A DNA stretch of 64,000 nucleotides, from positions 1,396,001-1,460,000 of the forward strand of contig NZ_JBBNAD010000005.1 of the NCBI RefSeq assembly GCF_037996765.1, read 5' to 3'. The position numbers were made by a program, and so were the translations under genes. Positions 46,024-63,811 of the stretch are shown in pieces (within the stretch, counting starts at the first letter, position 1; each line of letters begins with the position of its first letter). The notes under the pieces are model-generated. The model had not been told where the DNA came from, made no database searches, and was given only the letters and a program-made list of their open reading frames with translations. Origin of the DNA: Bdellovibrio sp. GT3. Its GTDB lineage: Bacteria; Bdellovibrionota; Bdellovibrionia; Bdellovibrionales; Bdellovibrionaceae.

Positions 46024-46091
46024 ACTGGCCTCGTGGTTTACCGGGTTGCAAGGCCTCCCAGTGATTCCTTATAATAGGACACGGAGGATTC

Positions 46092-47162: not shown

Positions 47163-47189
47163 TTAGACCCTGACTTAATTAAAGTCTTC

Positions 47190-47221
47190 AAACCCTTGGT
47201 CGCAAGACCAAGGGTTTTTTT
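47190..47221 (+). terminator. Rho-independent terminator of the RRM gene
   Basis: AAACCCTTGGTC and GACCAAGGGTTT form a 12-bp stem with a four-base loop, followed by a T run. Confidence 0.93.
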
Positions 47222-47312
47222 ATGCCCAAAATCAGCGCCCTCCTTCTTGAGTTCATCAGGATATAGGCACACCCTGAAGTGGACGGGCCACCGCCCGCTA
47301 AGCGAGGTGTTT

Positions 47313-47546
47313 ATGATGGATATCGAGCCGGAGATCCGCAAGGAACAAAGACGTATCCGTGAACAGCGGTTCTCGAAAGACGAGCCTCATGACGAAGTCG
47401 AGGGCATGACCGAACGGCCTCATAAGACCCATGAATTGGAATCCAGTCCACTGAAAGTGTTTTCAAGTTTCGTCATGATCTGTGTCTTGGCGGGAACTGT
47501 AGTGGGCGGAATTGCTCTGTACGTTTGGTTTAACTATGCGAACTGA
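47313..47546 (+). CDS. Small single-span membrane protein
   Basis: A 77-residue protein starting at an ATG pair (47313 and 47316) with GAGGTG upstream. The first 48 residues are highly charged (RKEQRRIREQRF), followed by one hydrophobic helix (VFSSFVMICVLAGTVVGGIALYVWF) and a two-residue tail: a C-terminal-anchor layout. It precedes cydAB by 115 bases on the same strand and could be functionally linked to the oxidase; that is inference. Confidence 0.65.
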   Translation: MMDIEPEIRKEQRRIREQRFSKDEPHDEVEGMTERPHKTHELESSPLKVFSSFVMICVLAGTVVGGIALYVWFNYAN

Positions 47547-47661
47547 AACGTGTCATTTGCAGCAACATAGAGTTGCACTTTCAAGAATCATATTCTCTTT
47601 GATGTGATCGGGGTCCATATTGCGCTTAAATCAGATGTGTTGTCTGGTTTAAGGAGCTGAT

Positions 47662-48972
47662 ATGGACGATCTGGTAGCCGCGCGTTCGACGATGGCTTTT
47701 TCGTTGGGATTTCATATTATTTTCGCAGCCATTGGCATGGTCATGCCGTTCTTTATGGCCGTCGCACACTTTCTTTATTTGAAAAAAAATCGCCAGGATG
47801 ATCTTGAGCTCACAAAGTTGTGGATGAAAGGTGTCGCCATTCTTTTTGCCGTCGGCGCGGTCTCGGGAACTGTTTTGTCCTTTGAGTTGGGGTTATTGTG
47901 GCCGGGCTTCATGAAGCACGCCGGTCCTATTATTGGAATGCCGTTTTCCTGGGAAGGGAGTGCTTTCTTTTTAGAAGCCGTTGCCATTGGACTTTATCTT
48001 TATGGTTGGAAACGAATGAACCGCTGGGTTCATTGGTGTGCAGGTCTTGTGGTGGGTATTTCCGGATTTGCCTCAGGGGTTTTTGTGGTCGCAGCCAATG
48101 CCTGGATGAATTCCCCGGCGGGCTTTGAATGGGTCAATGGCGAGGCCATTAATATAGATCCGGTTGCGGCGATGTTCAATCGGGCCTGGCTTCATCAAAC
48201 GATGCACATGCAGGTGGCAGCAATACAGGCGGTGGGTTTTGCGGTGGCAGGCTTGCATGCGTTGTTGTTATTAAAAAGACCGGGTTCAGTATTGCATATA
48301 AGAGCTCTTAAGATTGCGATGGTCTTTGCGGTGGTGTCTTCGTTGATCCAACCCTTGGTGGGCCACTATGCCGCTCAAAAAGTGGCAGAGTATCAACCTG
48401 CAAAACTTGCTGCCATGGAGGCGCACTTTCATACCGAGCCGCGGGCTTCTTTGATCATTGGTGGCATTCCTGACGTTGAAACAGGTGAAGTTCATGGCGC
48501 GATTAAGATTCCCGGCATGCTAAGCTTTCTGGCTTTCAATGATATGAATGCCACGGTTAAAGGCTTGAATGATTTTCCCCGCGATGAGTGGCCGCCAGTG
48601 CTGATCACCCACATTGCCTTTCAGGTGATGGTGGGACTGGGGACGTTGATGATTTTAGTGGGTTTGCTTTATGTCTATCTTGTGCGCAAGAACCAGCTGC
48701 CGACATGGTTTTTGAAAACTCTCTTTGTGATGACACCGGTTGGGTTTATTGCAATTGAAGCCGGCTGGATTGTCACCGAGGTGGGGCGACAACCGTGGAT
48801 TGTCTATGGAATTATGAAAACCAAAGACGCTGTCACGCCGATGCCGGGTATTCAATTTCACTTCTATCTTTTTCTGGTTTTGTATTTCTTCCTGGCATTC
48901 GTCACGGCTTGGCTGTTCCGTCGTCAGCTTCAAGTTGCGGAAAGAAACATGATTAAAGGAGTGCAGCGATGA
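47662..48972 (+). CDS. cydA: Cytochrome bd ubiquinol oxidase subunit I
   Basis: A 436-residue membrane protein with about nine helices. It holds the haems of cytochrome bd: His near 19 in LGFHIIFAAIGM, the haem-b ligand regions in LHQTMHMQVAAIQ, and GRQPWIVYG. The Q-loop is short, as in cyanide-insensitive CIO-type oxidases. It oxidises quinol with oxygen, at high affinity and without proton pumping. AAGGAG precedes the start; the end overlaps cydB by four bases. Confidence 0.94.
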   Translation: MDDLVAARSTMAFSLGFHIIFAAIGMVMPFFMAVAHFLYLKKNRQDDLELTKLWMKGVAILFAVGAVSGTVLSFELGLLWPGFMKHAGPIIGMPFSWEGSAFFLEAVAIGLYLYGWKRMNRWVHWCAGLVVGISGFASGVFVVAANAWMNSPAGFEWVNGEAINIDPVAAMFNRAWLHQTMHMQVAAIQAVGFAVAGLHALLLLKRPGSVLHIRALKIAMVFAVVSSLIQPLVGHYAAQKVAEYQPAKLAAMEAHFHTEPRASLIIGGIPDVETGEVHGAIKIPGMLSFLAFNDMNATVKGLNDFPRDEWPPVLITHIAFQVMVGLGTLMILVGLLYVYLVRKNQLPTWFLKTLFVMTPVGFIAIEAGWIVTEVGRQPWIVYGIMKTKDAVTPMPGIQFHFYLFLVLYFFLAFVTAWLFRRQLQVAERNMIKGVQR

Positions 48973-50012
48973 TTGAGATCATTCTTTTTTTTATCGCGGC
49001 ATCTTTGCTGCTATATGTGGTCTTGGGTGGGGCGGACTACGGTGCGGGAATTCTTGAGCTGGCAACACCAAGTCACCTTCAGGGGCGTCAACGTCAGTTG
49101 ATCAATGAAGCCATGGGGCCGGTCTGGGAAGCCAATCACATGTGGTTGATTATTATCGTCGTGATATTATTCGTCGGATTCCCCGGGTTATTCACGCTGG
49201 TGATGATTCATTTGCATATTCCGGTTGTGGCTTTGCTGGTGGGGATTGTGGCTCGCGGCACTGCCTTCACTTTCCGCCATTATGACGCCATTCATGATTC
49301 GAAGTCTCAGAATGCCTATTCCTGGATTTTCAGTCTTTCCAGTTTGTGGACGACGTTCTGGCTGGGAATCATCGCCGGCAGCCTGTGGCAGGGTGGCATT
49401 GATCCGACAGCCACGGGCTTCATGGAGGCGTATGTGCATCCTTGGATTGGTTGGGTTCCGGTTGCGATGGGTGTTTTCATGGTCTGTATTTTTTCATTTC
49501 TGGCGGCGATCTTTTTGGTTGGCGAAACCCAGGATGTGGAACTAAAAGCTTACTATCGACGCCGCGGATTTATTTTCAATATGGCTGTCGTCTTAAGTGG
49601 AGGCCTTGTTTTTGTCGCGGCCTATCTGGAGCAAAGCACATTGCTTTTGCGCTTTTTAAGAAATCCGTTCTCAATTGCCTGCGTGGTTGTGGCGACAATG
49701 TTTTTCATAATCCTCTGGAATCTTTTACGCTTTAATCGGTCGTTGTGGGTGCGCCTGGCTGCTGGTGCCCAGGTGTCTTTGATTCTGTTTGGTTGGTATT
49801 TTGCCAGTGCTCCAACGGCGGTACTGACTTCTCAAGGGGATGTTTCGTTTTTCGACTCGGCGGCACCAGAGCCCGCATTGAGACAGCTGACTTATGCACT
49901 TTGCGTGGGCAGTCTTTTGATCTTTCCCAGCCTCTTTTACCTTTTGAAAGTGTTTAAACTTTCAGGCAAGAGTTTGCAGCATGACGCCGCAAAGAATGAT
50001 GGCATAAAGTAG
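48969..50012 (+). CDS. cydB: Cytochrome bd ubiquinol oxidase subunit II
   Basis: A 347-residue membrane protein with eight or nine helices, shifted four bases over the end of cydA (ATGA). The N-terminus (LLYVVLGGADYGAGILEL) and EANHMWLIIIVVILFVGFP are typical of CydB. It forms the heterodimer with CydA. I found no CydX-type small subunit or cydCD genes in the window. Confidence 0.94.
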   Translation: MIEIILFFIAASLLLYVVLGGADYGAGILELATPSHLQGRQRQLINEAMGPVWEANHMWLIIIVVILFVGFPGLFTLVMIHLHIPVVALLVGIVARGTAFTFRHYDAIHDSKSQNAYSWIFSLSSLWTTFWLGIIAGSLWQGGIDPTATGFMEAYVHPWIGWVPVAMGVFMVCIFSFLAAIFLVGETQDVELKAYYRRRGFIFNMAVVLSGGLVFVAAYLEQSTLLLRFLRNPFSIACVVVATMFFIILWNLLRFNRSLWVRLAAGAQVSLILFGWYFASAPTAVLTSQGDVSFFDSAAPEPALRQLTYALCVGSLLIFPSLFYLLKVFKLSGKSLQHDAAKNDGIK

Positions 50013-50091
50013 AACGACGGTCTTCATTACATGCCTCCCTTTTTCTAGCCCCAGAGTACGCCGTTGGTTTTTGAAGACAAATAGAGTTATG

Positions 50092-51198
50092 ATGTTTGAT
50101 AACATGAAATCATACCGCGCAACATACATGAGAGGCGGCACCAGTCGTGCCTTGATATTCAATGAATCAGATCTTCCCGCTGATAAAAAAAGCTGGGATG
50201 AGATCTTTTTAAGAGCTTTGGGAAGCCCGGATCCCTATGGGCGCCAGCTTAATGGAATGGGTGGTGGAATTTCATCCTTAAGCAAAGTGGCTGTGGTGCG
50301 TGCCTCCGGCAATCCTGCGGCGGATGTGGATTACACATTTGCCCAAGTGTCAGTTACTGAAAGCAAAGTAGATTACAAAGGCAATTGTGGCAATATCAGC
50401 TCGGCCATCGGTCCCTTTGCTGTTTTGCAGGGATTGTGCAAAGTCACAGGCGGGGAGGCCCGCGTTCGAATTTTTAATACCAATACTCAAAAAATCATTC
50501 ATTCAATTTTCCCTGTGAAAGATTCCCTGCCAGAGTTTTCGGGCGATTTGGAAATCCCGGGAGTTGCGGGCAGCGGTGCTCCCATCCGGCTGGAATTCCA
50601 GGAACCAGGGGGCGCTTCGACGGGAAGTCTGTTGCCCACTGGGAAAATTTGCGAGTCACTGCACGTGGACGGAGTGGGGACGATCGAAGTCTCTATGGTT
50701 GATGCTGCCAATGCCTGCGTGATGGTACGAGCGCGGGATTTGGGACTGGCCGGCACTGAGACTCCTGCGGAGCTGGAACGTTCCGGGGAGTTGTTAAAAA
50801 AGCTGGATCTGATTCGCCGGCATGCTTCTGTTGCCATGGGAATTTCCAAGAACTTGGAGGATGCTGCCAACTATATCGCAATTCCCTACCTGGGAATTAT
50901 CAGTCCGGCGACAGGACCCGACCGGGATTTTGAAATGCGTGTGATTGCCAGTGGGCAGCCACACAAAGCACTGCCTTTGACGGTGTCTTTATGTGCTGCG
51001 GTCACTGCCAAACTTCCGGGCAGTGTTATTCATGAGGCGGTCCAGGGGAGAGCATTGTCGATGGTTCGAATTGGCATGCCTTCCGGGGTCCTGCAGCTTA
51101 GTGCCGATGTGGAAAAAGAAGGTGGAAACTGGATTGCACGCAGTGGCAGCTTCTATCGAACGGCACGTTTGCTTTTTGTTGGAGAAGTTTTTGTCTGA
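50092..51198 (+). CDS. PrpF-family (methylitaconate isomerase-like) protein
   Basis: A 368-residue protein. YMRGGTSRALIFNESDLP, NGMGGGISSLSKVAVV, GNCGNISSAIGPFAV and EFQEPGGASTGSLLPTG are the hallmark segments of PrpF/DUF453 proteins, which have a diaminopimelate-epimerase-like double fold. Known members isomerise methylaconitate or methylitaconate. No methylcitrate-cycle genes are adjacent, so the substrate is open. The start is ambiguous among ATGs at 50089, 50092 and 50104 and a TTG at 50071; 50092 has the best spacing from GAG. Confidence 0.87.
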   Translation: MFDNMKSYRATYMRGGTSRALIFNESDLPADKKSWDEIFLRALGSPDPYGRQLNGMGGGISSLSKVAVVRASGNPAADVDYTFAQVSVTESKVDYKGNCGNISSAIGPFAVLQGLCKVTGGEARVRIFNTNTQKIIHSIFPVKDSLPEFSGDLEIPGVAGSGAPIRLEFQEPGGASTGSLLPTGKICESLHVDGVGTIEVSMVDAANACVMVRARDLGLAGTETPAELERSGELLKKLDLIRRHASVAMGISKNLEDAANYIAIPYLGIISPATGPDRDFEMRVIASGQPHKALPLTVSLCAAVTAKLPGSVIHEAVQGRALSMVRIGMPSGVLQLSADVEKEGGNWIARSGSFYRTARLLFVGEVFV

Positions 51199-51325
51199 AT
51201 TCCATGACTATGGAGTCCAGTTGTCTCATTTTTAGATTCGTCCAGTCCCAATATTCGTGGTCCAATTTTTAATGTTAATATCAAACTGGGCCACGGAGAT
51301 ACCCCAAAAAATCCGATAAGGTAGT

Positions 51326-52771
51326 ATGCGCAAACTTATATTTATCTCAATAGCATTCATCTCTGCATGTGCTTCCAAGCCACGTCAGCCGGCTTCCGAG
51401 CCACTGGTTCTGACGCCGCCACCTGCAGGTGCCTTAACCCTGGATCAGGCTCTTACTCAAGGGCAGGAGGCAACGGTTGAATACTTGCAGTCGCAAGTAA
51501 AGGCAGAGCCTTACAAGAATCTTCATTCAAAAGACCCTGCCGTGGATTTGCCGACTTCGCTGCGAGCCGAGCGCAGCAAAACCGATAATTCAGACAAAAA
51601 GCAGCAGTCCGTATTTTTGCGCAAGTTCCGTGGTTGGAGTGCTCCGAAAAGACTTGGTCATGGCGAACAGCTTGTAGCGGACTTTAATTGCGACAAGGCT
51701 TTGGAAAGCCAGGCTATGGGGTACATGCTGGAGCTGGATTTTCCAGAACAGGGTGCCCGCGATGTTTCCAAGCAGCTTCATGAAAAAGTATTGAGCTGCG
51801 ATAACATTTCGAAAATTGAAAGTGTTTTTCGTTTGTCCGTATTCGCGATTCAGCAAAACGAATGCCCGCGTGCCATGGAATATCTGGATAAGTATCCAGC
51901 ACCGGCAGAGCGCGGTATGCGTGATCGCCAGGCTTACCTGAAAAGTTTCTGTTCAGCAGCTGTGAAAATTGAAAATGCCAACCCATTGGGGGGGTATGGA
52001 ATCTTGTTGGGTTCTTACCAGGCTAATCCTGCGGCGCAGTGGTACCTGGGCGTCAGCAGCGGTGATGAAGAGTGGGATCGCCTGTTGGCATCCTTGCTAA
52101 AACTAACTGCGGAAGAGCGTGCTTCCACAGTGCAATACATCGCTGGGAAAATGAATCTTGAGAAATTCAGAAGCTTGCCTTTGCCATTTCAAACCTCAGT
52201 GCTGGTGCTGATGAGTGCCAATGGCGCAGACCTTTCCGTATTCCAAGCTTTGCACAAGTATCTTTCTGATCATCCTGAAGCCATTTCCGAACCGGTGGCA
52301 AATTTGTTATTCCCGATTCGCTATTGGAAAGAAATCGTTGAAAACAGCAAAAGTGCAGATCCGATTCTGGTGAAAGCTCTGATTCGTCAGGAAAGTGCCT
52401 TTAACAGAACCGCACGCAGCCGTGCTCGTGCTTCCGGCCTGATGCAGTTGATCTATCCAACAGCCAAGCACTTCGGCGTTAAGAAGCCATTGCAGCTATT
52501 GATCCCGGAAACTAATATCCATGCTGGCTCGGAGTTTTTGGCGCAATTGATTTCTGAATTTGGTTCTGTGGAACTTGCTCTGGCTGCCTACAATGCGGGC
52601 CCAGGAATGGTTCGTCAGTGGCAAAAACGTTATCCCACTGAGAACATCGACTTGTTTGTCGAGATGATCCCTTATACTGAGACTCGCGAGTATGTTCGAT
52701 TGGTGAAAAGAAACTATAAGATCTACCAATCGATTCTTGTGAAACCTCAAGTACTCGGTTCAAATCCTTAA
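51326..52771 (+). CDS. Lytic transglycosylase, SLT domain lipoprotein
   Basis: A 481-residue lipoprotein (MRKLIFISIAFISACAS). After a Pro-rich linker come a helical domain (about 85-340) like the Slt70 superhelix and a C-terminal SLT domain: ALIRQESAFNRTARS (catalytic Glu near 355), ASGLMQLIYPTA, ALAAYNAGPGMV, YTETREYVRLV. It cleaves glycan strands of peptidoglycan, yielding 1,6-anhydro ends. The intact GLMQL and AAYNAG motifs suggest activity. Followed by a terminator. Confidence 0.92.
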   Translation: MRKLIFISIAFISACASKPRQPASEPLVLTPPPAGALTLDQALTQGQEATVEYLQSQVKAEPYKNLHSKDPAVDLPTSLRAERSKTDNSDKKQQSVFLRKFRGWSAPKRLGHGEQLVADFNCDKALESQAMGYMLELDFPEQGARDVSKQLHEKVLSCDNISKIESVFRLSVFAIQQNECPRAMEYLDKYPAPAERGMRDRQAYLKSFCSAAVKIENANPLGGYGILLGSYQANPAAQWYLGVSSGDEEWDRLLASLLKLTAEERASTVQYIAGKMNLEKFRSLPLPFQTSVLVLMSANGADLSVFQALHKYLSDHPEAISEPVANLLFPIRYWKEIVENSKSADPILVKALIRQESAFNRTARSRARASGLMQLIYPTAKHFGVKKPLQLLIPETNIHAGSEFLAQLISEFGSVELALAAYNAGPGMVRQWQKRYPTENIDLFVEMIPYTETREYVRLVKRNYKIYQSILVKPQVLGSNP

Positions 52772-52798
52772 ATAAATTCCAATTACAGACAATTTTTC

Positions 52799-52838
52799 TT
52801 AACCGCTGGATTCATACCCCAGCGGTTTTGTCTTTTTA
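52799..52838 (+). terminator. Rho-independent terminator
   Basis: AACCGCTGG (52801-52809) and CCAGCGGTT (52819-52827) with a nine-base loop, followed by TTTTGTCTTTTT, 30 bases after the transglycosylase stop. Confidence 0.88.
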
Positions 52839-53105
52839 TGATCTGCCCAGATTACAAATTAAACGAAACAATTGTGATCCTATCTTATAAAGTTACTCAT
52901 GTTTATAGTGAAATTCAATGCGCGAAGCAATTGTTTGAAGATGGCAAACGAATTCAGAATAAAATCAGATCAAAAAGTGATTAATTTCGAGATCTCGTAT
53001 CAAGCTTGTTTCATTGCAATAATGTACTAAACATTTTTTACTACGGATGTATAGAAGTCAATGTGAGCATCCGAATAGTAAGTATCACATTAATAGGAGA
53101 GGCCC
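52839..53105. other. AT-rich intergenic region upstream of the chemotaxis cassette
   Basis: No gene, RNA or repeat is apparent. AGGAGAGG (about 53094-53101) is the ribosome-binding site of the receptor gene. The composition is more AT-rich than the flanks, as expected for a promoter region; I could not place -35/-10 boxes or a convincing FliA site. Confidence 0.5.
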
Positions 53106-55184
53106 ATGTCAATTGCACGTCGTTTCGATGAAGCCGGTCCGGAAGTAGACGATGTAAGTGTACTTCAGGACGAAATTAAAGCATTGCACCGAGTTCAGGC
53201 AGTCATAGAATTCAATCTTGACGGCACGGTTCGAACGGCTAATGAAAACTTTCTGAATGCAGTGGGATATTCTCTTGGGGACATCCAGAGCAAGCATCAT
53301 TCAATGTTCTGCGATCCCGCTTATGCAGCAAGCCTGGAATATCGAAATTTCTGGCAGACCCTGGCAAAGGGTGAATTTGTTGCCGGTGAGTTTAAGCGCT
53401 TTAATAAAAATGGCGGCGAAATCTGGATTAATGCTTCTTACAATCCGGTTTTTGATAAAGATGGAAATCCTTATAAAGTTATTAAGTTTGCGACAGACAT
53501 CACGGCATTGAAACTTCGCACGGCGGAGTATGAAAGCAAAGTGAATGCAATTGGTCGTGTTCAGGCAGTGATTGAGTTTAATCTTGAGGGCACAATCTTG
53601 AATGCCAATGAAAACTTCCTGGCGACCACTGGTTACGGTTTGAGTGAAATTCAAGGTAAACATCATAAGATGTTCTGTGACCCTGCCTATGTGTCTTCCT
53701 TCGAATATAAAGAGTTCTGGGAGAAGCTTGCCAAAGGCGAGTTCGTTGCCGGTGAATTTAAGAGATTTGGCAAGGGCGGTGGCGAGGTTTGGATCAATGC
53801 CTCGTACAATCCAATTTTCAATGCTGAGGGCAAGCCTTTTAAGGTGGTGAAGTTTGCAACGGATATCACCAAGGCGAAAATGACTTCTGCAGAGAACGAA
53901 GGTAAGATTTCGGCAATTTCCAAGGCTCAGGCCGTCATCGAATTTAATCTGGATGGCACTATCATTACTGCCAATGAAAACTTCCTGGCGACTGTGGGTT
54001 ACAGTCTTGGGGAGATCAAAGAAAAGCATCACAGAATGTTCTGTGATGCGGACTACACGCGGGGCTCTGACTATGCAGCATTCTGGCAGAAGTTGAATCG
54101 CGGTGAGTTCGATTCGGGACGCTATCAGCGCATTGGCGCAGGTGGCAAGAAGATCTGGATCCAGGCCACTTACAATCCAATTATGGATGCCAGTGGCAAA
54201 CCATACAAAGTCGTGAAATTTGCCTCTGATATCACAGCGCAAGTGGAGATGGAGCAATCCATTAAACTGAAGGCGGAAGAAGATCAACAAAAGGTGGATC
54301 AATTATTGGCAGTTGTGAATCGCGCGGCAGCGGGTGATTTGAGTACGGCTATTTCTGTGAGTGGCACAGATGCCCTGGGCCAGCTTGCCAGTGGTATTGC
54401 GACCATGATGCGCGACCTGCGTATCGTGATCGGTAAAGTGGTTGATTCAGCAGGTAATTTTGGCGAAAGTTCAAAATCGATTGCCAGCCAATCCAACAAT
54501 GTGGCGTCTGGTGCTCACTCGCTAGGTGCGACAGTTGAGGAAATGAATGCTTCTATCGAGGAATTCACGGCCTCCATTGCGTCGATTGCCGATAACACCA
54601 AAAAAGCAAATGAGCTTGCGAAAGTAACGCAATCCGAAGCTGAAGTGGGAAGCCAATCCATCGCGAAGTCCATTGAGGCGATGGAGTTGATCAACAAGTC
54701 ATCAGAAGATATCAGTGAGATTATTAAAGTTATCAGTGAAATCGCCAGCCAGACCAATTTATTGGCCTTCAATGCGGCGATCGAAGCTGCTCGTGCTGGT
54801 GAGCACGGTCTAGGGTTCTCGGTGGTCGCTGATGAGGTTCGCAAACTTGCAGAGCGTTCGTCTCAGGCAACCAAAGAGATCTCCAAGTTGATTAACGAGT
54901 CAGTGAAACGTGTTGAACAAGGCAGTGCTATTTCGAAGCAGGCCGGAGAAGCTTTCAGCAAAATCGTCACGGGAATCGAAAAGACAACTCAATCCATTGC
55001 GGAAGTCAATTTGGCAGCGGAAGAGCAATCTGAATCTGCCAAAGGCATCAGCACGGCTGTTCAGTATATTGCGGACGAGGCGACGAAATCAGCGCAAGCA
55101 TCAGAGAACATTGCGACAGCAACCAAATCTCTGGTGACGGGAGCCGAGGATCTGAATAACACAGTTTCAAGATTCGTGGTTTAA
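53106..55184 (+). CDS. Soluble chemoreceptor with three tandem PAS domains
   Basis: A 692-residue methyl-accepting protein with no membrane helix. Three nearly identical PAS domains (about 25-140, 146-262, 268-384) each contain VIEFNL-x-GT, NANENFL, the HH-x-MFCD box, FWQ/FWE, GEF and ASYNP. Then a HAMP-like stretch ([12 protein letters not shown]) and the signalling coiled coil, with the conserved tip [19 protein letters not shown] near 546-564 and no obvious C-terminal CheR-binding pentapeptide. The layout is that of BdlA-type receptors (two PAS there, three here), probably sensing redox or a small cytoplasmic ligand. CheR follows three bases later. Confidence 0.92.
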
Positions 55185-55187
55185 TTT

Positions 55188-56015
55188 ATGTCAGAGGCAG
55201 AGAGACTGATCAGCGGTCCGACCCTGCGTCGGCTGCTCAGTCTGGTGAAAAAGCATACGGGCATTTATATGGAAGAACGCAAACGCGAGCTTCTGCTGGG
55301 ACGAATTCGCCCCCGTATGAAGGAGCTGGGCCTGTCCTCTGCCGAGGCTTACATTGATTACCTGGAAAATCATAAAGACGAAATCCAAAAGTTTGTAAAC
55401 TCAGTTACAACCAATGAAACGATATTTTTCAGAACTCCGGCGATCTGGGATTTTTTTGGTGGGGATTTTTTAAAGTCCTGGTTCCAAAAGAATGCCGGCG
55501 AAACTTTGCGAATCTGGTCTGCAGCGGCCTCTACCGGCGAGGAATCGGCGAGTATTGGTATCATGTGCGAGGAGTTCAAGAGATTGAATCCCAGATTTCA
55601 TTACCGCATCTATGCCTCTGATATTGATACCGACGTGCTCGAAGGTGCGCGCAAAGGTGTCTATAAGGAGCGAAGTATGGAGGACCTGCGTAAGCGGTCT
55701 CCGGATATTTTCAATCGTTACTTCAAGGGACGGGATTCAGCGGAATTGCAGCTCCATCCGTCGGTTATGGCGAACATTGAGTTCTTTCAGCATAATCTTC
55801 ATTCTCGCGGAACTCGGACTGCATTTTTTGATGTGGTGTTTCTGCGCAATGTTTTGATTTATTTCAATGAGCCGGATCAGGAGCTGGTGCTTAAGAACAT
55901 GCACGCAAGCTTAAAGCCACAGGGTGTTTTGATAATTGGTGAAGCGGAATCCCTGGCGCGATTAAATACATCCTTCGAATACACCAAACCACTAATTTAC
56001 AAGAGAGCGGTCTAA
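55188..56015 (+). CDS. cheR: Chemotaxis protein methyltransferase CheR
   Basis: A 275-residue enzyme that methylates receptor glutamates with S-adenosylmethionine. Helical N-domain (LLSLVKKHTGIYMEERKRELL) and Rossmann methyltransferase domain with WSAAASTGEE, YASDIDTDVL and DVVFLRNVLIYFNE are intact. It sits three bases after the receptor and overlaps the CheW gene by one base (TAATG), so the three are one transcript. Confidence 0.95.
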   Translation: MSEAERLISGPTLRRLLSLVKKHTGIYMEERKRELLLGRIRPRMKELGLSSAEAYIDYLENHKDEIQKFVNSVTTNETIFFRTPAIWDFFGGDFLKSWFQKNAGETLRIWSAAASTGEESASIGIMCEEFKRLNPRFHYRIYASDIDTDVLEGARKGVYKERSMEDLRKRSPDIFNRYFKGRDSAELQLHPSVMANIEFFQHNLHSRGTRTAFFDVVFLRNVLIYFNEPDQELVLKNMHASLKPQGVLIIGEAESLARLNTSFEYTKPLIYKRAV

Positions 56016-57508
56016 TGGGAGCGACAGTAGGTAAGGCAGTTGGTAATTTGCAGATGTTTGCCTCTTTTAAGCTGGGGGACTCCGAGCTGGCGATTTCTGT
56101 GGCTTTGTTGCAGGAAGTTGTCAATGTTCCGGAAGCCATCAGCCCGGTGCCACTTGCACCTGCTTACTTGAAAGGAATATTCAATCTTCGCGGAATCGTG
56201 ATTCCGGTGGTTGATATGGGCGTGCTTTTAGGTTTGCCGCGCGATGAGAAAGCCCTTGGTAAAATTGCCGTGGTTATCACTGAAGGAGTGCGAATCGGAC
56301 TCTTTTTTGATTCCACCTCTGAAATTTTAAATGTGCCGGCCGCGGATGTCTGTGCCTTTAATGATGCGCCCGAAGGCGTGCGCGCCGTCGTACGCTCTGC
56401 TTTGAAATTGAACAATGGCGCCCGCCTGGTTGAAGTGATCGATCCGGCATCGCTTTTAAAAATCGAAAATATCGCAAGCCTATTAAGTTCCACAGAACAA
56501 AAAGACGAGACACTTAAGAAAAAGCTGACTCGTCGTCAGTGTATTACATTTCATTCCGGTGACCGTGAGTTTGGTCTGAATATTTCAGCCATTCGTGAAA
56601 TCATCCGCGTGCCCGAGATCAAAAGAAGTTCGGTGCAGGTCGAGTACAGCCTTGGAGTTGTCAGTCTGCGTGGAGTGGTGATTCCAGTGTTGGACTTCGG
56701 CAAAATTCTGCAGGTTCAGCCTTCTTCTGAAGTGGATGTGGAAGCCAAGCGCATTATTATCATGAAAATAGAGGCCCTCTATGTGGGTTTCATGGTGGAT
56801 GCCGTTGATAGCATCAAGACATACTTCGAGGAAAATCTCCTGCCAATTCCTATGTTTGATCAAAAGAAAATGTCCATGATGCGTGGGGTTCTGCCGGTCG
56901 CTGAGGATCGCAACGTTTTGCTATTGGCAGAAGATCATATTCTGTCTGATGAGGAAGTTGATGAGTTCACGCGAGGCCATAGCTTGCTGTACTCCAAGGA
57001 AAATGCAAAGGCCCTTGAAAAAGAGGCAGCTGGTGAGCGCCACGCTTATATCTCCTTTAAACTGGAATACATGCTTTCGACACGTCTAAGCTCAGTCCAT
57101 GAGATTGCGAATCTGACGGAGGATATGGTGAAGCCACCAGGATTCCCGGATTATGTGGTGGGTGTTCAGCATATGCGGGGTGAGGTTGTTACCCTGGTGG
57201 ATCTGCGCATGTACTATGGAATGAAGTTCACCGGGGACTACAGCAGCTCACGCATTCTGATCGTTAAGGGTGCGCAGGGCAAGATTGGGTTGTTGGTGGA
57301 CTCGGTGGAGTCCATTGACACCGTTGATGAATCCAAAAAAATAAAAATTCCAAGTTTGTTCGCCAAAGATGCCCTGACGGCTTTGCGCGGAGACATACAG
57401 GATGTCGTTGAACTGCCAGATCCCACAGGAAAGAAAAAGATCTTTATGGTATTGGATATGCCGGAGGTCCTTCGTAAATTGCTGAATCCCCAAGGCAGCG
57501 CTGCCTAA
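56015..57508 (+). CDS. Triple-CheW-domain coupling protein
   Basis: A 497-residue protein made of three successive CheW domains (about 10-150, 170-315 and 345-490). Each has the start (FKLGDSELAISVALLQEV; FHSGDREFGLNISAIREI; FKLEYMLSTRLSSVHEI), followed by the -LRG-VIPVVD type segment (NLRGIVIPVVD, SLRGVVIPVLD, HMRGEVVTLVD). Single-domain CheW (about 160 residues) links receptors to CheA, so a three-domain form could bridge several receptors or kinases in an array. The second and third domains have drifted from one another. Confidence 0.92.
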   Translation: MGATVGKAVGNLQMFASFKLGDSELAISVALLQEVVNVPEAISPVPLAPAYLKGIFNLRGIVIPVVDMGVLLGLPRDEKALGKIAVVITEGVRIGLFFDSTSEILNVPAADVCAFNDAPEGVRAVVRSALKLNNGARLVEVIDPASLLKIENIASLLSSTEQKDETLKKKLTRRQCITFHSGDREFGLNISAIREIIRVPEIKRSSVQVEYSLGVVSLRGVVIPVLDFGKILQVQPSSEVDVEAKRIIIMKIEALYVGFMVDAVDSIKTYFEENLLPIPMFDQKKMSMMRGVLPVAEDRNVLLLAEDHILSDEEVDEFTRGHSLLYSKENAKALEKEAAGERHAYISFKLEYMLSTRLSSVHEIANLTEDMVKPPGFPDYVVGVQHMRGEVVTLVDLRMYYGMKFTGDYSSSRILIVKGAQGKIGLLVDSVESIDTVDESKKIKIPSLFAKDALTALRGDIQDVVELPDPTGKKKIFMVLDMPEVLRKLLNPQGSAA

Positions 57509-57605
57509 TTTAGTCTTTTGACACATTTCAGTTCGTAATTCGTTTTAACCAGATCACCTCGCTATCCTAGGCATAAATTTTTAGCTCTGGGAGCGGGGTC
57601 TTTTT

Positions 57606-58232
57606 ATGAATGTCAGTCTACGAGGCGCAAGCCGAGTTTCTTGTGTTTTGCTTGCAGCAGGTAAATCTTCGCGAATGAGCGGAAAAAATAAGCTTCTTTT
57701 GCCCTTTGGGGGGCAAACACTTGTACGTCGTACAGCGATGGAAGTCCTGAATATCAATTTCGAGGAAATGATAGCAGTGACCGGGCACGAAGCGGACTCC
57801 ATTTCCGCGCAACTTAAGGATTTGCCATTAAAAGTGGTATTAAATCAGGAGTTTGATGCCGGTATGCACAGTTCGATCAGAACCGGATTGGCTCACCTGC
57901 GCAAATACCATGATGGTTTTTTTATTTGTCATTCCGATCAGCCCGAGCTCGATTCGGTCATGTTGAAAGATATGATTCGTGTTTTTGAAGAACACGAGGG
58001 AAAAAATATTGTTTATCTGTCTTGTCAGGGAAAAACCTCGCAGCCCATTTTGATTCCGCGCGAATTTGCACCCGAGATCCTGCAGTATCCAGACGGGGAC
58101 TATGGATGTTCTTATCTGCTGAATAGATATTCGCAGCGTCTGGCCCCTTTGGAAGTAAAAGAGGAAATGTACCTTCGCGATTTGGATACGCCAGAGGATT
58201 TGTCGATTATTTCGCTCGCACAACATGGTTAA
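57606..58232 (+). CDS. MobA/MocA-like nucleotidyltransferase
   Basis: A 208-residue protein with the nucleotide-binding start VLLAAGKSSRMSGKNKLLLPFGG and the metal motif CHSDQPELDS. The family transfers CMP or GMP to molybdopterin; the layout (LAAGKS-x-RM, DQP) is closest to MocA cytidylyltransferase. No Mo-enzyme or XdhC gene is adjacent. Downstream, at 24 bases, is an exported protein of unknown role. Confidence 0.85.
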   Translation: MNVSLRGASRVSCVLLAAGKSSRMSGKNKLLLPFGGQTLVRRTAMEVLNINFEEMIAVTGHEADSISAQLKDLPLKVVLNQEFDAGMHSSIRTGLAHLRKYHDGFFICHSDQPELDSVMLKDMIRVFEEHEGKNIVYLSCQGKTSQPILIPREFAPEILQYPDGDYGCSYLLNRYSQRLAPLEVKEEMYLRDLDTPEDLSIISLAQHG

Positions 58233-58256
58233 GCAACCAGTAAAAAGGAGTATACG

Positions 58257-58853
58257 ATGAAAGTGAAAGTTTTTGGTTTGTTAATGGCAGCAGCTCTATT
58301 GGCTCCTCAAACAGGTTTGGGACAGGACGATCCTAAAATCTATGAGAAAATGGAAAAAACGGGTCCCCATAGCATGGAAGGAACCCAGGCAATAGAAGTT
58401 GAGGCAAAAGTGGTTGAGGTCAATCGAAAGACCCGTGAAATCACCTTAAAGCCGAAAGACGGTGAAAGCATGACCGTGAAGGTTGGCGATGAGGTCAGAA
58501 ACTTCGATAAAATCAATAGAGGTGACATGCTAAGAATCCGTTACCTGGAATCTTTGGCCTTGGAGCTGAAAAAACAAGGCACCGCAGAGAATATGAGAGA
58601 CAGATCAGCAGAAGTCATTCGCTCCAAGCCGGGTCAGAAGCCGGGGGGGATGGTGGTGGAGAAAGTTTCAGCCATCGGTACTATCACAAATGTGGATAAG
58701 AAAAAGAAGAATGTGACTATCAAAGGACCAGAGCGTTCGGTCACGGTTCAAGTGCAGGATAAGAGTATTCTGGATCAACTGAAAAAAGGTGATCAGATAG
58801 AGATTGAGTATACACAAGCGATGGCAGTTTCAGTAGAGACCATCAAACGATAG
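58257..58853 (+). CDS. Exported protein with two repeated small beta domains
   Basis: A 198-residue exported protein (signal MKVKVFGLLMAAALLAPQTGLG). Two similar units follow: EAKVVEVNRKTREITLKPKDG...GDMLRIRYLESLAL and GTITNVDKKKKNVTIKGPER...GDQIEIEYTQAMAV. This repeat resembles DUF5666- or OB-like domains. AAAGGAG precedes the start. Function unknown; periplasmic location likely. Confidence 0.77.
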   Translation: MKVKVFGLLMAAALLAPQTGLGQDDPKIYEKMEKTGPHSMEGTQAIEVEAKVVEVNRKTREITLKPKDGESMTVKVGDEVRNFDKINRGDMLRIRYLESLALELKKQGTAENMRDRSAEVIRSKPGQKPGGMVVEKVSAIGTITNVDKKKKNVTIKGPERSVTVQVQDKSILDQLKKGDQIEIEYTQAMAVSVETIKR

Positions 58854-58858
58854 AAACT

Positions 58859-58892
58859 TAAAAGGTGGGGCAAGCCCCACCTTTTCTTTTTT
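58859..58892. terminator. Bidirectional Rho-independent terminator
   Basis: AAAGGTGGGG / CCCCACCTTT with a four-base loop, T run on the plus side and a T-rich run on the minus side. It also covers the last bases of the convergent BON gene (stop at 58891). Confidence 0.88.
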
Positions 58893-59520
58893 AGTGATTT
58901 TTGTTTTCTCTTCTTCGCTCTCCAGTGTTCGATTCGTCGATGTCTGAGTTGGAACCCATTTCACTTTGAGTGGACCAGTCATGAGTTGATTCGCGTTGCA
59001 CGCGGATATTGTTAATAATATCCCGAACGGACGAAGTTCTTTCTGTCAGATCCTCCGCCAGATGTTTCATGCGTCTTTCCGGGACCGTACCTGAAAGAGT
59101 CACTTCGGCATCCTTGACTTTAACCTCTATGTCACGAGCGTCGATCTGGGAGTCCCGAGTGAGCATGTCGCAAATGTCTTCGCGGATTCGGTCATCGGAG
59201 CGTACGTAGGATTTCGGTCCGTGACCAGCAAAGGACTTGCGCTCGCTTCTTTCGTGGCCATAGTCCTCTTCTTGATAGTGACCTCTGCGTCCCCCGTATG
59301 CTTGAGAGCCGCGATGGTCCCGGTCAGAGTAATTTTGTGAACTGTAGTCCCTGGAGGAGTTTTCCATGTTAAAGTCCCGGGCTCTTTCATCTTCATTGGA
59401 ACTGGAAAAATTGCTTTGGCCATTGTCATTCTGTGACCAGCGGGAATCGTTGCGAGAGGAGTGAGAGCCACGAGAAGAGTAAGGTCTTCGGTCCTGGCTG
59501 CGATTGAATCTGTTTTGCAT
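58891..59520 (-). CDS. BON-domain protein with a disordered Arg/Ser-rich N-terminus
   Basis: I start at 59520, with AAGGAG nine bases upstream. The 209-residue product begins with about 100 residues rich in Arg, Ser, Asn, Asp and Gly (NRFNRSQDRRPYSSRG), probably disordered. A BON domain follows: DDRIREDICDMLTRD, DIEVKVKDAEVTLSGTVP, RRMKHLAEDL, DIINNIRV. There is no signal peptide, unlike most BON proteins (OsmY, phospholipid- or membrane-binding). The C-terminus is again charged. Confidence 0.8.
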   Translation of the reverse strand: MQNRFNRSQDRRPYSSRGSHSSRNDSRWSQNDNGQSNFSSSNEDERARDFNMENSSRDYSSQNYSDRDHRGSQAYGGRRGHYQEEDYGHERSERKSFAGHGPKSYVRSDDRIREDICDMLTRDSQIDARDIEVKVKDAEVTLSGTVPERRMKHLAEDLTERTSSVRDIINNIRVQRESTHDWSTQSEMGSNSDIDESNTGERRRENKNH

Positions 59521-59608
59521 AGAATGCTCCTTTTGTGCAGCCTTTACGATCACTCAGGTTGATTCGGCTGCCAATCTAGGGCGGAGCATTTGGTCATTAA
59601 TCATATTG

Positions 59609-60718
59609 TCAGAGCGCAGTTATTTCGCGGATCCAAGGGTGATTTAGTTTTCCCTTACCGATGTCCAGTCTGACTCTGTTGTAGAGATTCACCTTTTCGT
59701 AGAGTTGTGAAGAGACCCGAATATCCTGTGGGAGAATCAGCGAGGATTTGGTATTCGAAACCTGAATGTGGTAGGTGATGTAGTGTCTTCCTGAACGAAC
59801 ACGGTGCATTTGGGTGTAGTGCCCCTCCACAATTCCTTCAACTATAATTGAAGGTGAGCGATCCAGCTTGATGTTAATTTCAGAAAAAAGCGCGGTGCCG
59901 CCAAACGGAATGGCGAATGCAAGAACCAGAATACTTTCAACGATAATGCGATGACCCCGCGATGACTTTCTGAAGATGTAACCTATGATAGCGACCAGAA
60001 TAACAGCGGCAAGAGTACTGGCTATAAGAGCCGATCGTGCAAGTTCAACAGAGTTCACATACACATCTTCGCGCAAACGCATCCATTGAAGAACGCTTGC
60101 AAAGGCATAACCTGCAAATCCCCAAATCAATGATTCAGAGACAAGTGCTTTCCATGCAAAGGTGTCTGATTCGCGCGGTTGCTTTTCAATCTGTTCAATT
60201 TGCTTGGAGAGTTTTGCGAAAAGAACGGCAATGGTGTTGTCGCTGCGCTGGTCGCCGGGAAATCGGGCTTGAATAAAACCGCCGCTGCCGGCGATCCAGA
60301 GACAGCCGTGTGAGAATAGTTCTGTGATCAAGCCTCGGCATTCTGAGTCGCTTTGAATCTTGCGCATAAAGCCCGTATTGTCGGATGCGATATAGATCAA
60401 TTCATCAAACTGAAGATCCCGTGTCTGGATTTCATCAGCAAAGCCCCATTTTTTAAACCAGCGATCCAGTTTGGACTCTTTTGTCAGTTTAAAAGTGATA
60501 TCGCGGGAATAACTTCTGTTCCAAGTGGTGAGCTGCTGCTTGGCACGGCCTTTTGCTATGTAGGAGAAAAGTTCAATACCTTCGTGCTGACTGGTGGTGC
60601 CTATCATTTTTTGTAAAGCAATGTGGCGATTTCCCAATCGGAATAGGAATGCACCGACAGTGATGATGAGCTTCAATAGTATCCACATAAATAAATTATT
60701 GTCTTTTGAAAGATTCAT
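59609..60718 (-). CDS. Membrane protein of unknown function
   Basis: A 369-residue protein with an N-terminal hydrophobic segment (FMWILLKLIITVGAFLF) and two central ones (AGYAFASVL; SALIASTLAAVILVAIIGYIF and the following SILVLAFAIPFGGTALF). The middle soluble part contains a CRGLITELFSHGC pair, and the C-terminal domain is beta-rich (SIIVEGIVEGHYTQM, HYITYHIQVS). No family recognised. The start could also be the ATG at 60688; neither has a good ribosome-binding site. Confidence 0.65.
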   Translation of the reverse strand: MNLSKDNNLFMWILLKLIITVGAFLFRLGNRHIALQKMIGTTSQHEGIELFSYIAKGRAKQQLTTWNRSYSRDITFKLTKESKLDRWFKKWGFADEIQTRDLQFDELIYIASDNTGFMRKIQSDSECRGLITELFSHGCLWIAGSGGFIQARFPGDQRSDNTIAVLFAKLSKQIEQIEKQPRESDTFAWKALVSESLIWGFAGYAFASVLQWMRLREDVYVNSVELARSALIASTLAAVILVAIIGYIFRKSSRGHRIIVESILVLAFAIPFGGTALFSEINIKLDRSPSIIVEGIVEGHYTQMHRVRSGRHYITYHIQVSNTKSSLILPQDIRVSSQLYEKVNLYNRVRLDIGKGKLNHPWIREITAL

Positions 60719-60777
60719 GTCCAGACATTCCGACCTGGTGGGACTTCTTTTATAATTGTTCAGTCGAAAGGGGATTT

Positions 60778-62112
60778 ATGCGTTCAATCTTGATAATGCT
60801 GACGACACTGTTGTTTTTGGGTTCCTGTGCTCATAAGAAAAATGTCGGTCAGGAAAGTAATGGCGAAGGTTGGTTGATATTAAAGGGTGCACGCCTTATT
60901 GATGGCATGGGCGGAATTCCCCGGGATAACGTAAATATTGTTTTGAAGGATGACCGCATTCAGTCGATTCTGGATCCCAAAGAAGCACTGCCTCCGCGAG
61001 CGAAAGTTCTGGAGCTAGAGGGTAAAACGGTGATTCCTGCCTTGATGTCGTCGCACATTCATTTGGGCATGACCAAAGGGGTCGATGTTGGGTCCCGGAA
61101 TATTTCTGCTGAAAATGATCTAAGTCAGCTCTACAAGTTTTCCAAATACGGTGTGGGTGCAGTTTTGTCTCTGGGTACGGATGGTGATGAGATCTACAAA
61201 ATCCGCGCAGACAGTCAAAGAAGTGACAGTTCCCTGCCGCGGGTTTTGACAGCGGGAAGGGGATTTGGCGTACCTAATGGAGCACCTCCGATGGATATGG
61301 GAATTGATCATGTGTATCGGCCTCGAACTGTGGCGGAGGCACGTAAGCAGCTTAAAGATCTTTTAGCAAAGCAGCCCGATGTTATTAAAATTTGGGTGGA
61401 TGATTTTCATGGAAAGATGAAAAAGAAAATGGACCCGGCAATCTACAAGGCACTGATTAAGGATGCCCACGCCAATAAGGTGCCCGTGGCAGCCCACGTT
61501 TACTATTTGCAAGATGCCAAACTTTTGGTGCAGGCAGGTGTGGACATATTGGCGCACAGTGTGCGGGATCAGGATGTCGATTTGGAACTGGCGTCCTTGA
61601 TGAAAACCAAAAACGTCGCCTACATACCGACTCTGTCAGTGGATGAATCACAGTTTATTTACGAAAAGAAACATACCTGGATGGATGAGCCATTTTTTCA
61701 AGGAGCCCTGGATGCAGGTGTGATGTCGTGGTTGCAAACATCTTACAAAGCCAATCCCGCAGCTCGTGAATCATTGAGTCAGGCCCAGAAGAATGTCATG
61801 ACATTATATAAAGCAGGAATCGTAATAGGACTGGGGACTGATTCGGGTGCGAACCAGGCACGAATTCAAGGTTTTAGCGAACACCGTGAAATGGAACTTT
61901 TGGTGGATGCCGGCATTGAGCCGCTGGAGGTCCTGCGTATGGCCACGGTCAATAATGCCAATATCCTCGGGTTGACAAAAGACTATGCGGGAATTCAACC
62001 GAAAATGAAGGCGAATTTGATCGTGTTGGATGCCGACCCCTCAGAGGACATCCGTAACACGCAGAAGATAAACACTGTCTTTATTAACGGCCGAATTATC
62101 GAAAGACATTAA
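60778..62112 (+). CDS. Amidohydrolase-family lipoprotein
   Basis: A 444-residue exported hydrolase; AAAGGGG precedes the ATG at 60778, and the signal ends in LFLGSC. Metal residues of the amidohydrolase barrel are visible: SSHIHLG, VIKIWVDD (carbamylated-Lys position), VAAHVYYL, ILAHSV, and GLGTDSGAN (Asp). The wording GARLIDGMGGIPRDNVNIVL at the start and KANLIVLDADP at the end give the two halves of the outer beta domain. The group includes imidazolonepropionase- and prolidase-like enzymes. The 3' end overlaps gltS by 17 bases tail to tail. Confidence 0.88.
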   Translation: MRSILIMLTTLLFLGSCAHKKNVGQESNGEGWLILKGARLIDGMGGIPRDNVNIVLKDDRIQSILDPKEALPPRAKVLELEGKTVIPALMSSHIHLGMTKGVDVGSRNISAENDLSQLYKFSKYGVGAVLSLGTDGDEIYKIRADSQRSDSSLPRVLTAGRGFGVPNGAPPMDMGIDHVYRPRTVAEARKQLKDLLAKQPDVIKIWVDDFHGKMKKKMDPAIYKALIKDAHANKVPVAAHVYYLQDAKLLVQAGVDILAHSVRDQDVDLELASLMKTKNVAYIPTLSVDESQFIYEKKHTWMDEPFFQGALDAGVMSWLQTSYKANPAARESLSQAQKNVMTLYKAGIVIGLGTDSGANQARIQGFSEHREMELLVDAGIEPLEVLRMATVNNANILGLTKDYAGIQPKMKANLIVLDADPSEDIRNTQKINTVFINGRIIERH

Positions 62113-63277
62113 GACAGAAGGTAATGACGGCGGCATTGAAAAAATCAATAAAGCACGAGCCTACCAAGGGCACGACTAAGAATGCTTTTGGTGCAGGACC
62201 GTATTTTTGGCTTAAGGACTGCATGTTAGCCATAGCATTGGCCGTGGTTCCCATCATAAAGCCTGTGTAACCCGCGCCAATCACGGCTCCTTCGTAGTCC
62301 TTGCCGGTGGCCCAAAAAGCCGGTCCGACAGCTGTGACTGCGACAAGGATTGTTTGCACAGTCAGGAAAACTAAAATTGGTAAGGCTGCATTTTTTAGCT
62401 CCTCCAAGCGCAAACTCATGATGGCCATGGCGATGAACAAGGTCAGGGCCACTCCGCCGATCTCCTCCATCCATTCTGGTTGGATATGGAAAAGGTTTGT
62501 GAAGTCCTCGATGTTTCTAAATATCGCAGCGACAACCATTGAGCCGATATAGATGGGCAAAGTGATTCCCAAAGCAACAATCCAAGTTGAAACATAAGAA
62601 CCCAGGCCCATGATCAGAATCAAAGCCAGAAAGTGCAGCAGCAGATCGCGACCCGGAAATGCTTTCAAGAAGTGGGAGTCATCCACTCTGGCATGGCCTC
62701 GGGAAGCGTGACCTTTTAAATTGTGTTTATGAATCAAATAAGTCGCCAGAGGTGCACCGATCAAACCACCCAGCAGGATACCGCCCATCGCGGATGTGAT
62801 TCCGATGATGGAGGCGTTTTCAACTCCGGCGGCTTCAAAAGCTGGTGCAAATGCCAATGCTGTACCGGGACCACCAGTTAACGAAACTGCGCCGGTCAAG
62901 ACACCCATCAAGGGATGTACGCCCATGACTTTGGCGGCACCGATTCCCGCTAGCACCTGAAGTAACAATCCAACGATTGAAAGCAACAGAAAATAGACCA
63001 CCATCTTTCCGCCTTGCTTCAACAGGCGAAACGAAGCTGCATATCCGACCGAGGCGAAAAAGGCGATCATCAGGGGAGTTTCAAAGGACTTGTCGAATTG
63101 GAACTCGATCCAGCCTTGGGATTTCAAAACAGAAATAACAATGGCGACGAGAACACCACCAATGACAGGGGATGGCAGATTGTATCTATCGATAAAAGTA
63201 ATTTTTGATTTTAGAAAGCGGCCCAAATAGACCACAAGGACTGCGAACGCGACGGTTTGAATGGATGATAAACTCAT
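62096..63277 (-). CDS. gltS: Sodium/glutamate symporter
   Basis: A 393-residue inner-membrane carrier with about ten helices. YNLPSPVIGG near the N-terminus, GGPGTALAFAPAFE in the first half and YTGFMMGTTANAMANM in the second are typical of GltS (ESS family), which takes up glutamate with Na+. The two inverted repeat halves carry the conserved Gly-rich segments. It is divergent from the next locus. Glutamate uptake fits aspA and an amino-acid-based metabolism. Confidence 0.92.
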   Translation of the reverse strand: MSLSSIQTVAFAVLVVYLGRFLKSKITFIDRYNLPSPVIGGVLVAIVISVLKSQGWIEFQFDKSFETPLMIAFFASVGYAASFRLLKQGGKMVVYFLLLSIVGLLLQVLAGIGAAKVMGVHPLMGVLTGAVSLTGGPGTALAFAPAFEAAGVENASIIGITSAMGGILLGGLIGAPLATYLIHKHNLKGHASRGHARVDDSHFLKAFPGRDLLLHFLALILIMGLGSYVSTWIVALGITLPIYIGSMVVAAIFRNIEDFTNLFHIQPEWMEEIGGVALTLFIAMAIMSLRLEELKNAALPILVFLTVQTILVAVTAVGPAFWATGKDYEGAVIGAGYTGFMMGTTANAMANMQSLSQKYGPAPKAFLVVPLVGSCFIDFFNAAVITFCLNVFR

Positions 63278-63368
63278 GTCTCAAGATTAAACGGCTCAAA
63301 GGGGGGCTGTCTAGGGTGCGTCGCGATATTGGGTTTACAAGACGGGGTAAAGCTCATAGATTGATCCT

Positions 63369-63728
63369 ATGATTCGCGCTGTTGTCGTTCATATTATGAT
63401 TGTGTTCAGCCTGCTCAATATTTGGAGCGTGGGCTTTGCATCACAATTTGACGACTGTTGTGAATCCCAGGTCGAGCTGACTTCGGGTGCCTTTCATGAT
63501 GAATCTTCTCAACAAGTTAAATTAGTTAGTGAAAGTCATCAGGACGAGGATTGCGCAACTCAATGTGTTGATTGCGTGATTTGCCATAGTCAGTGCAATC
63601 AGCACGGTTTGATGAGTTTTTCTTCTCAACTATTGGGAATTGAATTACAGCAAGTATACAGAGCAGCTGCACTGGCGGATTACTCAGAAGCTCCTCTGCG
63701 CTCACAGAAAGAACCTCCTCGGGTTTAA
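63369..63728 (+). CDS. Small exported Cys/His-rich protein, probable metal-locus accessory
   Basis: A 119-residue protein with a signal peptide (MIRAVVVHIMIVFSLLNIWSVGFA). The mature part has DDCCES and then DCATQCVDCVICHSQCNQH, seven or more cysteines plus several His, which could bind Cu, Zn or Cd. It stands 83 bases upstream of a probable TolC-type gene. Cys/His-rich small exported proteins are often found at the front of heavy-metal efflux operons; the link is inference. Confidence 0.68.
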   Translation: MIRAVVVHIMIVFSLLNIWSVGFASQFDDCCESQVELTSGAFHDESSQQVKLVSESHQDEDCATQCVDCVICHSQCNQHGLMSFSSQLLGIELQQVYRAAALADYSEAPLRSQKEPPRV

Positions 63729-63811
63729 GCACCCGTCATCTCTAATTAAAAAATGAAACAGATTTTTTGTCAGACCCCGTATTAGGTTTGGCTTTCATCA
63801 GGATATTTATA

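Follow-up and report, generated by a model that had tools for sequence, protein, structure and literature searches.

A putative operon of soluble receptor, methyltransferase and triple CheW

We analysed a window of 64,000 nucleotides from Bdellovibrio sp. GT3 (contig NZ_JBBNAD010000005.1, positions 1,396,001 to 1,460,000 of the forward strand), in which three head-to-tail genes on the + strand encode a soluble chemoreceptor (53106–55184), a CheR methyltransferase (55188–56015) and a coupling protein with three CheW domains in one chain, here called CheW3 (56015–57508). The receptor and CheR genes are 3 bp apart, and one base is common to the CheR stop and the CheW3 start. An earlier reading of this DNA, made from its letters and translated open frames (the sequence-only reading), had placed the operon at 53106–57508 with CheR between the other two genes, and both order and coordinates proved right. 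The features of this putative operon, which we refer to as the cassette, are as follows (window positions; aa, amino acids):

53106–55184, + strand: soluble receptor, 692 aa, with three PAS repeats, a HAMP-like segment and one signalling domain
53166–53531, + strand: PAS repeat 1 (aa 21–142), nearest solved chains 3ewk (MmoS) and 8dik (Aer)
53532–53897, + strand: PAS repeat 2 (aa 143–264), nearest solved chains 3ewk (MmoS) and 8dik (Aer)
53898–54263, + strand: PAS repeat 3 (aa 265–386), nearest solved chains 3ewk (MmoS) and 8dik (Aer)
54294–54422, + strand: HAMP-like segment (aa 397–439), below the Pfam cut-off, within a Tsr match starting at aa 398
54612–55073, + strand: signalling domain (aa 503–656), PF00015 match, hairpin length equal to that of Tsr and of 14 other receptors
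54741–54875, + strand: receptor tip, near-invariant among cassette receptors
55188–56015, + strand: CheR methyltransferase, 275 aa, by Pfam; aligned to 1af7, with FFR and RNV.IYF present
56015–57508, + strand: triple CheW (CheW3), 497 aa, by Pfam and a model with three CheW folds
56063–56461, + strand: CheW domain 1 (contig 1452063–1452461), E34 and R59 identical in all 21 CheW3 of the alignment
56537–56953, + strand: CheW domain 2 (contig 1452537–1452953), E195 and R219 identical in all 21 CheW3 of the alignment
57083–57475, + strand: CheW domain 3 (contig 1453083–1453475), E363 and R388 identical in all 21 CheW3 of the alignment

In the receptor, Pfam recognises three PAS stretches, an MCPsignal domain (E 7e-47) and a sub-threshold HAMP match (E 6e-4), while a scan of all 19-aa windows predicts no membrane helix, in line with its earlier description as soluble. 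The PAS repeats are spaced by exactly 122 aa, with 80, 66 and 69 of 122 residues identical in pairwise comparisons (54–66%), so that they are indeed as highly alike as had been claimed. For all three, the nearest solved PAS domains are those of MmoS (3ewk) and Aer (8dik), sensors of redox state through flavin adenine dinucleotide (FAD) (PMC10468136). Among FAD-binding PAS domains of the Aer/AerC/MmoS/NifL kind, a conserved Trp is reported as the main determinant, together with a His and an Asn (PMC10468136). The repeats share with Aer/AerC this type of PAS with conserved Trp and His: their Trp aligns with that of Aer and MmoS, and across 161 repeats Trp is present in 98% and His in 94%. In our own reading of the alignment the conserved Trp would correspond to the F-alpha Trp of that study, and a FAD-type assignment of the repeats is plausible. 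The cassette receptor differs from Aer/AerC in its varying repeat number, which ranges from 1 to 5 among 57 receptors (some cut by contig ends), with lengths differing by whole PAS units, for example 570 and 692 aa, and may differ from them also in its pairing with a triple CheW.

The signalling domain aligns to that of Tsr without net insertion or deletion, and its hairpin length is identical in all 15 receptors of the genome. This bears on the class of the receptor, which the sequence-only reading had named as BdlA-like. The receptor resembles BdlA/McpS of Pseudomonas aeruginosa in being soluble, with tandem PAS domains ahead of a signalling domain, and FAD is predicted for both BdlA PAS domains (PMC8694187). 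However, the signalling domains of BdlA/McpS are described as shorter than those of the host's other receptors (PMC8694187), whereas that of the cassette has full Tsr length, and on this ground we do not place the receptor in the BdlA-like class.

The second gene matches the Pfam models CheR and CheR_N, and its FFR and RNVLIYF motifs align with 1af7, with equivalents of the catalytic residues kept. These motifs may hold the Arg and Tyr that were named for Treponema denticola CheR as required for methylation (PMC7666581), and the enzyme is intact-looking.

The third gene product contains three CheW stretches in a single chain (Pfam, E 2e-65), as the sequence-only reading had described. A Glu–Arg pair, E38–R62, is reported to mark a functional CheW domain (PMC3828127). 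Across 67 CheW3 proteins, the equivalent of Escherichia coli CheW E38 is found in 100, 99 and 100% of domains 1, 2 and 3, that of R62 in 100% of each, and that of G57 in 99–100% per domain, with domain 1 the most conserved of the three. The earlier concern that the CheW domains might have lost their contact residues for CheA and receptor is hence ruled out as far as E38 and R62 are concerned. An AlphaFold2 model (mean predicted local distance difference test score 75.9, predicted template modelling score 0.52) lends support to three CheW folds, though not to the way they are placed relative to one another.

No kinase gene accompanies these three genes. We searched the 212 open frames of the window by phmmer, using the CheA, CheB, CheR and receiver segments of this genome and the CheD of a relative as queries, which returned no CheB, CheD or receiver in the window and, as the sole CheR, the operon's own. 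The best CheA match was one short, weak ATPase-like stretch (independent E-value 8e-4) in a long open frame at 40916–43414, and the previous statement that the window has no CheA, CheB or CheY thus holds. An NCBIfam scan added nothing above its cut-offs but a general PAS model, and no tRNA lies within 45000–64000 of the window. A promoter scan found 6 sigma-70-like sites, against 6.6 in shuffled sequence, and 8 terminator-like sites were found against 4.7.

Recurrence of the cassette

The cassette is more than a local oddity. In a sample of 118 relatives, 24 of them from the genus, a triple CheW is encoded in 24 genomes, including 12 of the 24 from the genus, and is split or cut in three (G010, G027 and G043). 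Among 23 loci of these relatives, 14 have the order receptor–CheR–CheD–CheW3, three are without CheD, three are without both CheR and CheD, and three are cut by contig ends; the absence of CheD from the window's operon is probably a loss. Such gaps could be taken to mean that the cassette is a decaying remnant doing little, seeing that CheD is absent from the window and from 3 close relatives, that 3 further loci have neither CheR nor CheD, and that presence in the genus is patchy (12/24). The frames are nevertheless open, key residues of the receptor tip and of CheW3 are invariant, and CheR has kept its own. In addition, a CheD of Bdellovibrio bacteriovorus, Bd2829, is reported to rise together with flagellar proteins as new predators form (PMC12546842). 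Bd2829 may be the cassette CheD; in the relative G006, the cassette CheD lies near 2.734 Mb. We consider decay very improbable.

To the relatives we added a scan of named genomes, covering the best 78 of 422 candidate loci (some of them the same records as in the relatives' set), in which neighbours within ≤7 kb were identified with the proteins of this genome as queries. The full order of PAS receptor, CheR, CheD and CheW3 was present in 57 of the 78 loci, one with a broken CheW3, and the order receptor–CheW3–CheR–CheD in five. Ten loci were partial, cut or without a recognised neighbour, one was a cluster of another kind, and two were clusters of the type of chemosensory class F9, with the receptor DosM and a CheA. 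CheA was nearby in 3/78 loci, none being cassettes, and no CheB stood beside any cassette within the same distance. The three loci that complete the set (L161, L165 and L166, from Halochromatium, Desulfocapsa and another proteobacterium) have CheW3 followed by a soluble-looking receptor (1024–1155 aa) that has a single signalling domain and again a LAFN tip, with no CheR, CheD or CheA nearby.

Hosts of the cassette belong to four phyla, Bdellovibrionota, Proteobacteria, Planctomycetota and Acidobacteriota, and within Proteobacteria include Burkholderiales, Rhodobacteraceae and other Alphaproteobacteria, as well as Granulosicoccus and other Gammaproteobacteria; the Planctomycetota and Acidobacteria hosts are one metagenome-assembled genome (MAG) each. 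Named carriers include Bdellovibrio bacteriovorus kdesi and Ruegeria sp. TM1040. A phylum-wide sample of 368 genomes gave a CheW3 match at 1e-40 in 45 (34 of 234 among better assemblies), five of the 45 matches being split or partial (G010, G027, G043, G184 and G228). Among the four best plasmid matches, the full order is present in that of Ruegeria sp. TM1040, whereas those of Paraburkholderia, Caballeronia and Novosphingobium have a receptor and then a triple CheW. Four lower plasmid matches, picked by hand, have an ordinary receptor tip. The G+C content of the cassette (0.475) is that of the window (0.472) and so does not point to recent import.

In a quick tree built from the domains of 22 CheW3 proteins, domains 1 of the cassettes group together with support across phyla, and the same is true of domains 2, with weaker grouping of domains 3; the simplest reading is a single triplication that preceded the spread. 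The CheW3 proteins of two F9-type clusters (L169 and L170) sit on long branches, and their position in this tree is not firm. In all three CheW domains, the cassette of B. bacteriovorus kdesi (L087/L114), whose CheW3 is only ~35% identical to that of the window, groups with the Acidobacteria MAG and not with the window's, which suggests a likely transfer, the genus having another version as well.

A private receptor tip linked to CheW3

The genome of 3.58 Mb, in six contigs, encodes 15 receptor signalling domains (PF00015), each in its own open frame. Apart from the cassette receptor, all 14 have hydrophobic segments and are membrane-bound, and they share the tip form DIAFQTNLLALNA[AS]VEAARAGE[QH]G[KR]GF[AG]VVA[ED]AVR, from which the cassette receptor alone differs. 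Across hosts, by contrast, the tip of the cassette receptor is almost the same (LAFN). We searched genomes with a degenerate DNA pattern for this tip segment and found it in 23 of the 24 CheW3-bearing relatives and in none of the 94 CheW3-free ones. The one miss, G106, is a genome of 57% completeness whose contig starts inside CheR; in G043 and G104, the tip match lies on a contig other than that of CheW3. A further 50 host genomes all contained the pattern, 47 of them once and 3 twice. In the genomes scanned, the cassette receptor type was thus never seen without CheW3, and the four best plasmid matches fit this pairing. A search for the tip in phages returned 52 records.

Probable kinase partner and comparison with known systems

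The sequence-only reading had proposed looking for a CheA elsewhere, and two CheA, along with two CheB, are indeed encoded on the same contig outside the window. In total, the genome has seven CheW domains, of which CheW3 accounts for three while the others lie singly in CheW1, CheW2, CheA1 and CheA2, and it has two CheR. Cluster 1 consists of CheB, CheR and CheA1, and of CheW1 on the opposite strand, while cluster 2 holds CheA2, CheW2 and a CheD–receiver–CheB fusion, without CheR or receptor. In the CheB part of this fusion (L009:8171-9724; contig C5, ~1.038–1.040 Mb), which lies beside CheA2, the catalytic Ser and His of 1chd are replaced by Asn and Ser, with the Asp kept, and it is probably a dead methylesterase. 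Since the second CheB is seemingly without catalytic Ser and His, demethylation in this genome would fall to CheB1.

The make-up of cluster 2 raises the idea that the cassette is its missing half, with CheA2 as a dedicated kinase, as the cluster is without receptor and CheR and a close CheA2 is present in all 12 cassette genomes of the genus. Yet the CheA2 gene is found in 21/24 genomes of the genus, nine of the 21 being without the cassette, the overlap could be chance (0.11), and outside the genus only one of 12 cassette genomes (G035) has a close CheA2. Furthermore, the P5 domain of CheA2 (L009:5683-7410) has His at both positions corresponding to CheW E38 and R62, so that CheA2 may be seated differently in the baseplate. 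We judge a dedicated role of CheA2 to be improbable.

More generally, a CheA is encoded elsewhere in nearly all tested hosts. Its dimerisation domain (PF02895) was matched in 71 of 74, exactly once in 46 of the 71, by a model that misses this genome's CheA2; one of the three hosts without a match (G010) has pieces of CheA1 and CheA2. Conversely, in 24 of the 118 relatives, a count made by eye, nothing matched at CheA strength (all E above 1e-20), and none of these 24 has CheW3; the chance of this absence is 0.0016 to 0.0028 with kinship ignored. Together, these two observations favour a resident CheA as partner. As no kinase belongs to the recurring cassette, it probably makes use of one that serves other chemotaxis systems of the cell. 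We therefore think it rather likely that the operon is an accessory cytosolic chemosensory cassette with its output through a resident CheA. In such a system, the PAS repeats, of the Aer/AerC/MmoS type and presumably FAD-binding, would sense the cell's internal redox or energy state, and the signal would pass through the HAMP-like segment to the signalling hairpin of Tsr length. The hairpin tip would fit CheW3, and through its three linked CheW domains CheW3 could join several receptor tips and so contribute to a cytosolic array, separate from the array that the 14 other receptors form in the membrane. The cassette CheR, and CheD where present, would tune the receptor, and a CheA encoded elsewhere would join the array in trans via CheW3 and signal to the motor, with an effect on swimming. 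This reading also draws on the recurrence of the gene order, the tie between tip type and CheW3 and the kept CheW cores, as well as on published F9 work: Vibrio cholerae F9 arrays assemble, if in smaller number, without CheA (PMC7534058), and a foreign CheA has been proposed for partial F9 sets (PMC9321776).

Several points weigh against a borrowed kinase. The binding of CheW3 to a CheA is something we infer, and the cassette tip differs from the tips of receptors that presumably use the resident CheA. Joint inheritance accounts for part of the link between tip and CheW3, because the two genes adjoin. R117 and F122 of E. coli CheW, which make its interface 2 contacts (PMC5181776), are kept neither in CheW3 nor in the ordinary CheW1 of this genome, so that the earlier concern about contact residues may or may not apply to this interface. 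FliM, taken as a marker of motility, was found in only 54 of the 74 hosts, with a model that seems weak on Rhodobacteraceae. Lastly, neither PF02895 nor a CheA1 query finds a CheA in G133 (Legionella sp. km772) or G137 (a Sphingomonas MAG), both being draft assemblies. In the Legionella draft (L120 and L247), the receptor is on one contig and CheD with CheW3 on another, and FliM is present.

These two hosts also lend themselves to a different explanation, in which receptor and CheW3 form a cytosolic scaffold that involves no CheA and is read by another partner or through methylation. No cassette locus that we read contains a CheA, the G+C of the Legionella pieces (0.363 and 0.375) is low, as we take to be usual for the genus, and cytosolic F9 arrays of Vibrio cholerae are reported to form without CheA, in lower number (PMC7534058). 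Against a scaffold of this kind stand the CheA of the 71 tested hosts, the lack of CheW3 in all CheA-free relatives, the core residues kept in all three CheW domains, and the draft state of the two CheA-less assemblies, and we regard it as unlikely. It is similarly doubtful that the cassette represents a separate chemosensory class across several phyla, in which a triple CheW and a single type of receptor, marked by its private tip, would form kinase-free cytosolic lattices and signal without CheA.

What the cassette and class F9 have in common is a triple CheW in concatenated form, together with receptors that are all cytosolic (PMC7534058; PMC9321776). Cluster I of V. cholerae encodes the triple CheW VC1402 (PMC7534058), the DosM VC1403 and the CheA VC1397. 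DosM and CheW3 are given as the marks of the class, which was found in full in 64 and in part in 8 of 2781 species (PMC9321776). The partial form, in Nitratiruptor and Nautilia, has dosM, cheW3 and cheBR without cheA, and a foreign CheA was proposed as its partner (PMC9321776). The cassette is like the partial form in that a triple CheW stands in a cluster without CheA, but differs in having, in place of DosM, a PAS receptor in the company of CheR and CheD. From full F9 it is set apart by PAS repeats, a single signalling domain, the LAFN tip and the lack of DosM or a CheA of its own; neither the CheA nor the CheY of full F9 is in the window. DosM has two signalling domains, whereas the 15 PF00015 matches of this genome fall in separate open frames, showing no DosM among them. 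As DosM is absent, we do not count the cassette as F9 or partial F9.

The array and coupler had been called unusual in the sequence-only reading, which is true in part; the triple CheW itself is known from F9 (PMC9321776). For the related set, both this type of coupler and the notion that a kinase is borrowed have been published, while the receptor type with its private tip, its CheR–CheD company and the wide spread were not met in the literature searched. That literature, which covered few subscription papers, contained no description of a set of PAS receptor, CheR, CheD and CheW3 without CheA. A CheW architecture study by Vass et al. in 2022 may well include proteins of this kind. The surveys that we read sort systems by CheA or, for F9, by DosM and CheW3, so that a set without CheA or DosM is easily missed. 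With one receptor type, one coupler and an almost frozen tip in several phyla, in hosts that also run other arrays, the cassette offers a clean test case for how arrays are kept apart in one cell, and for whether a coupler by itself can recruit a foreign kinase.

Unlike the cassette, three F9-type clusters (L169, L170 and L242) have a double-headed receptor with a LALN tip, one of the two tips being read per receptor. L242, on plasmid AZO_p4 of Azospirillum lipoferum, is a full F9-type cluster that contains the double-headed receptor, a triple CheW, CheB, a HEAT-repeat protein, CheR, a response regulator and CheA.

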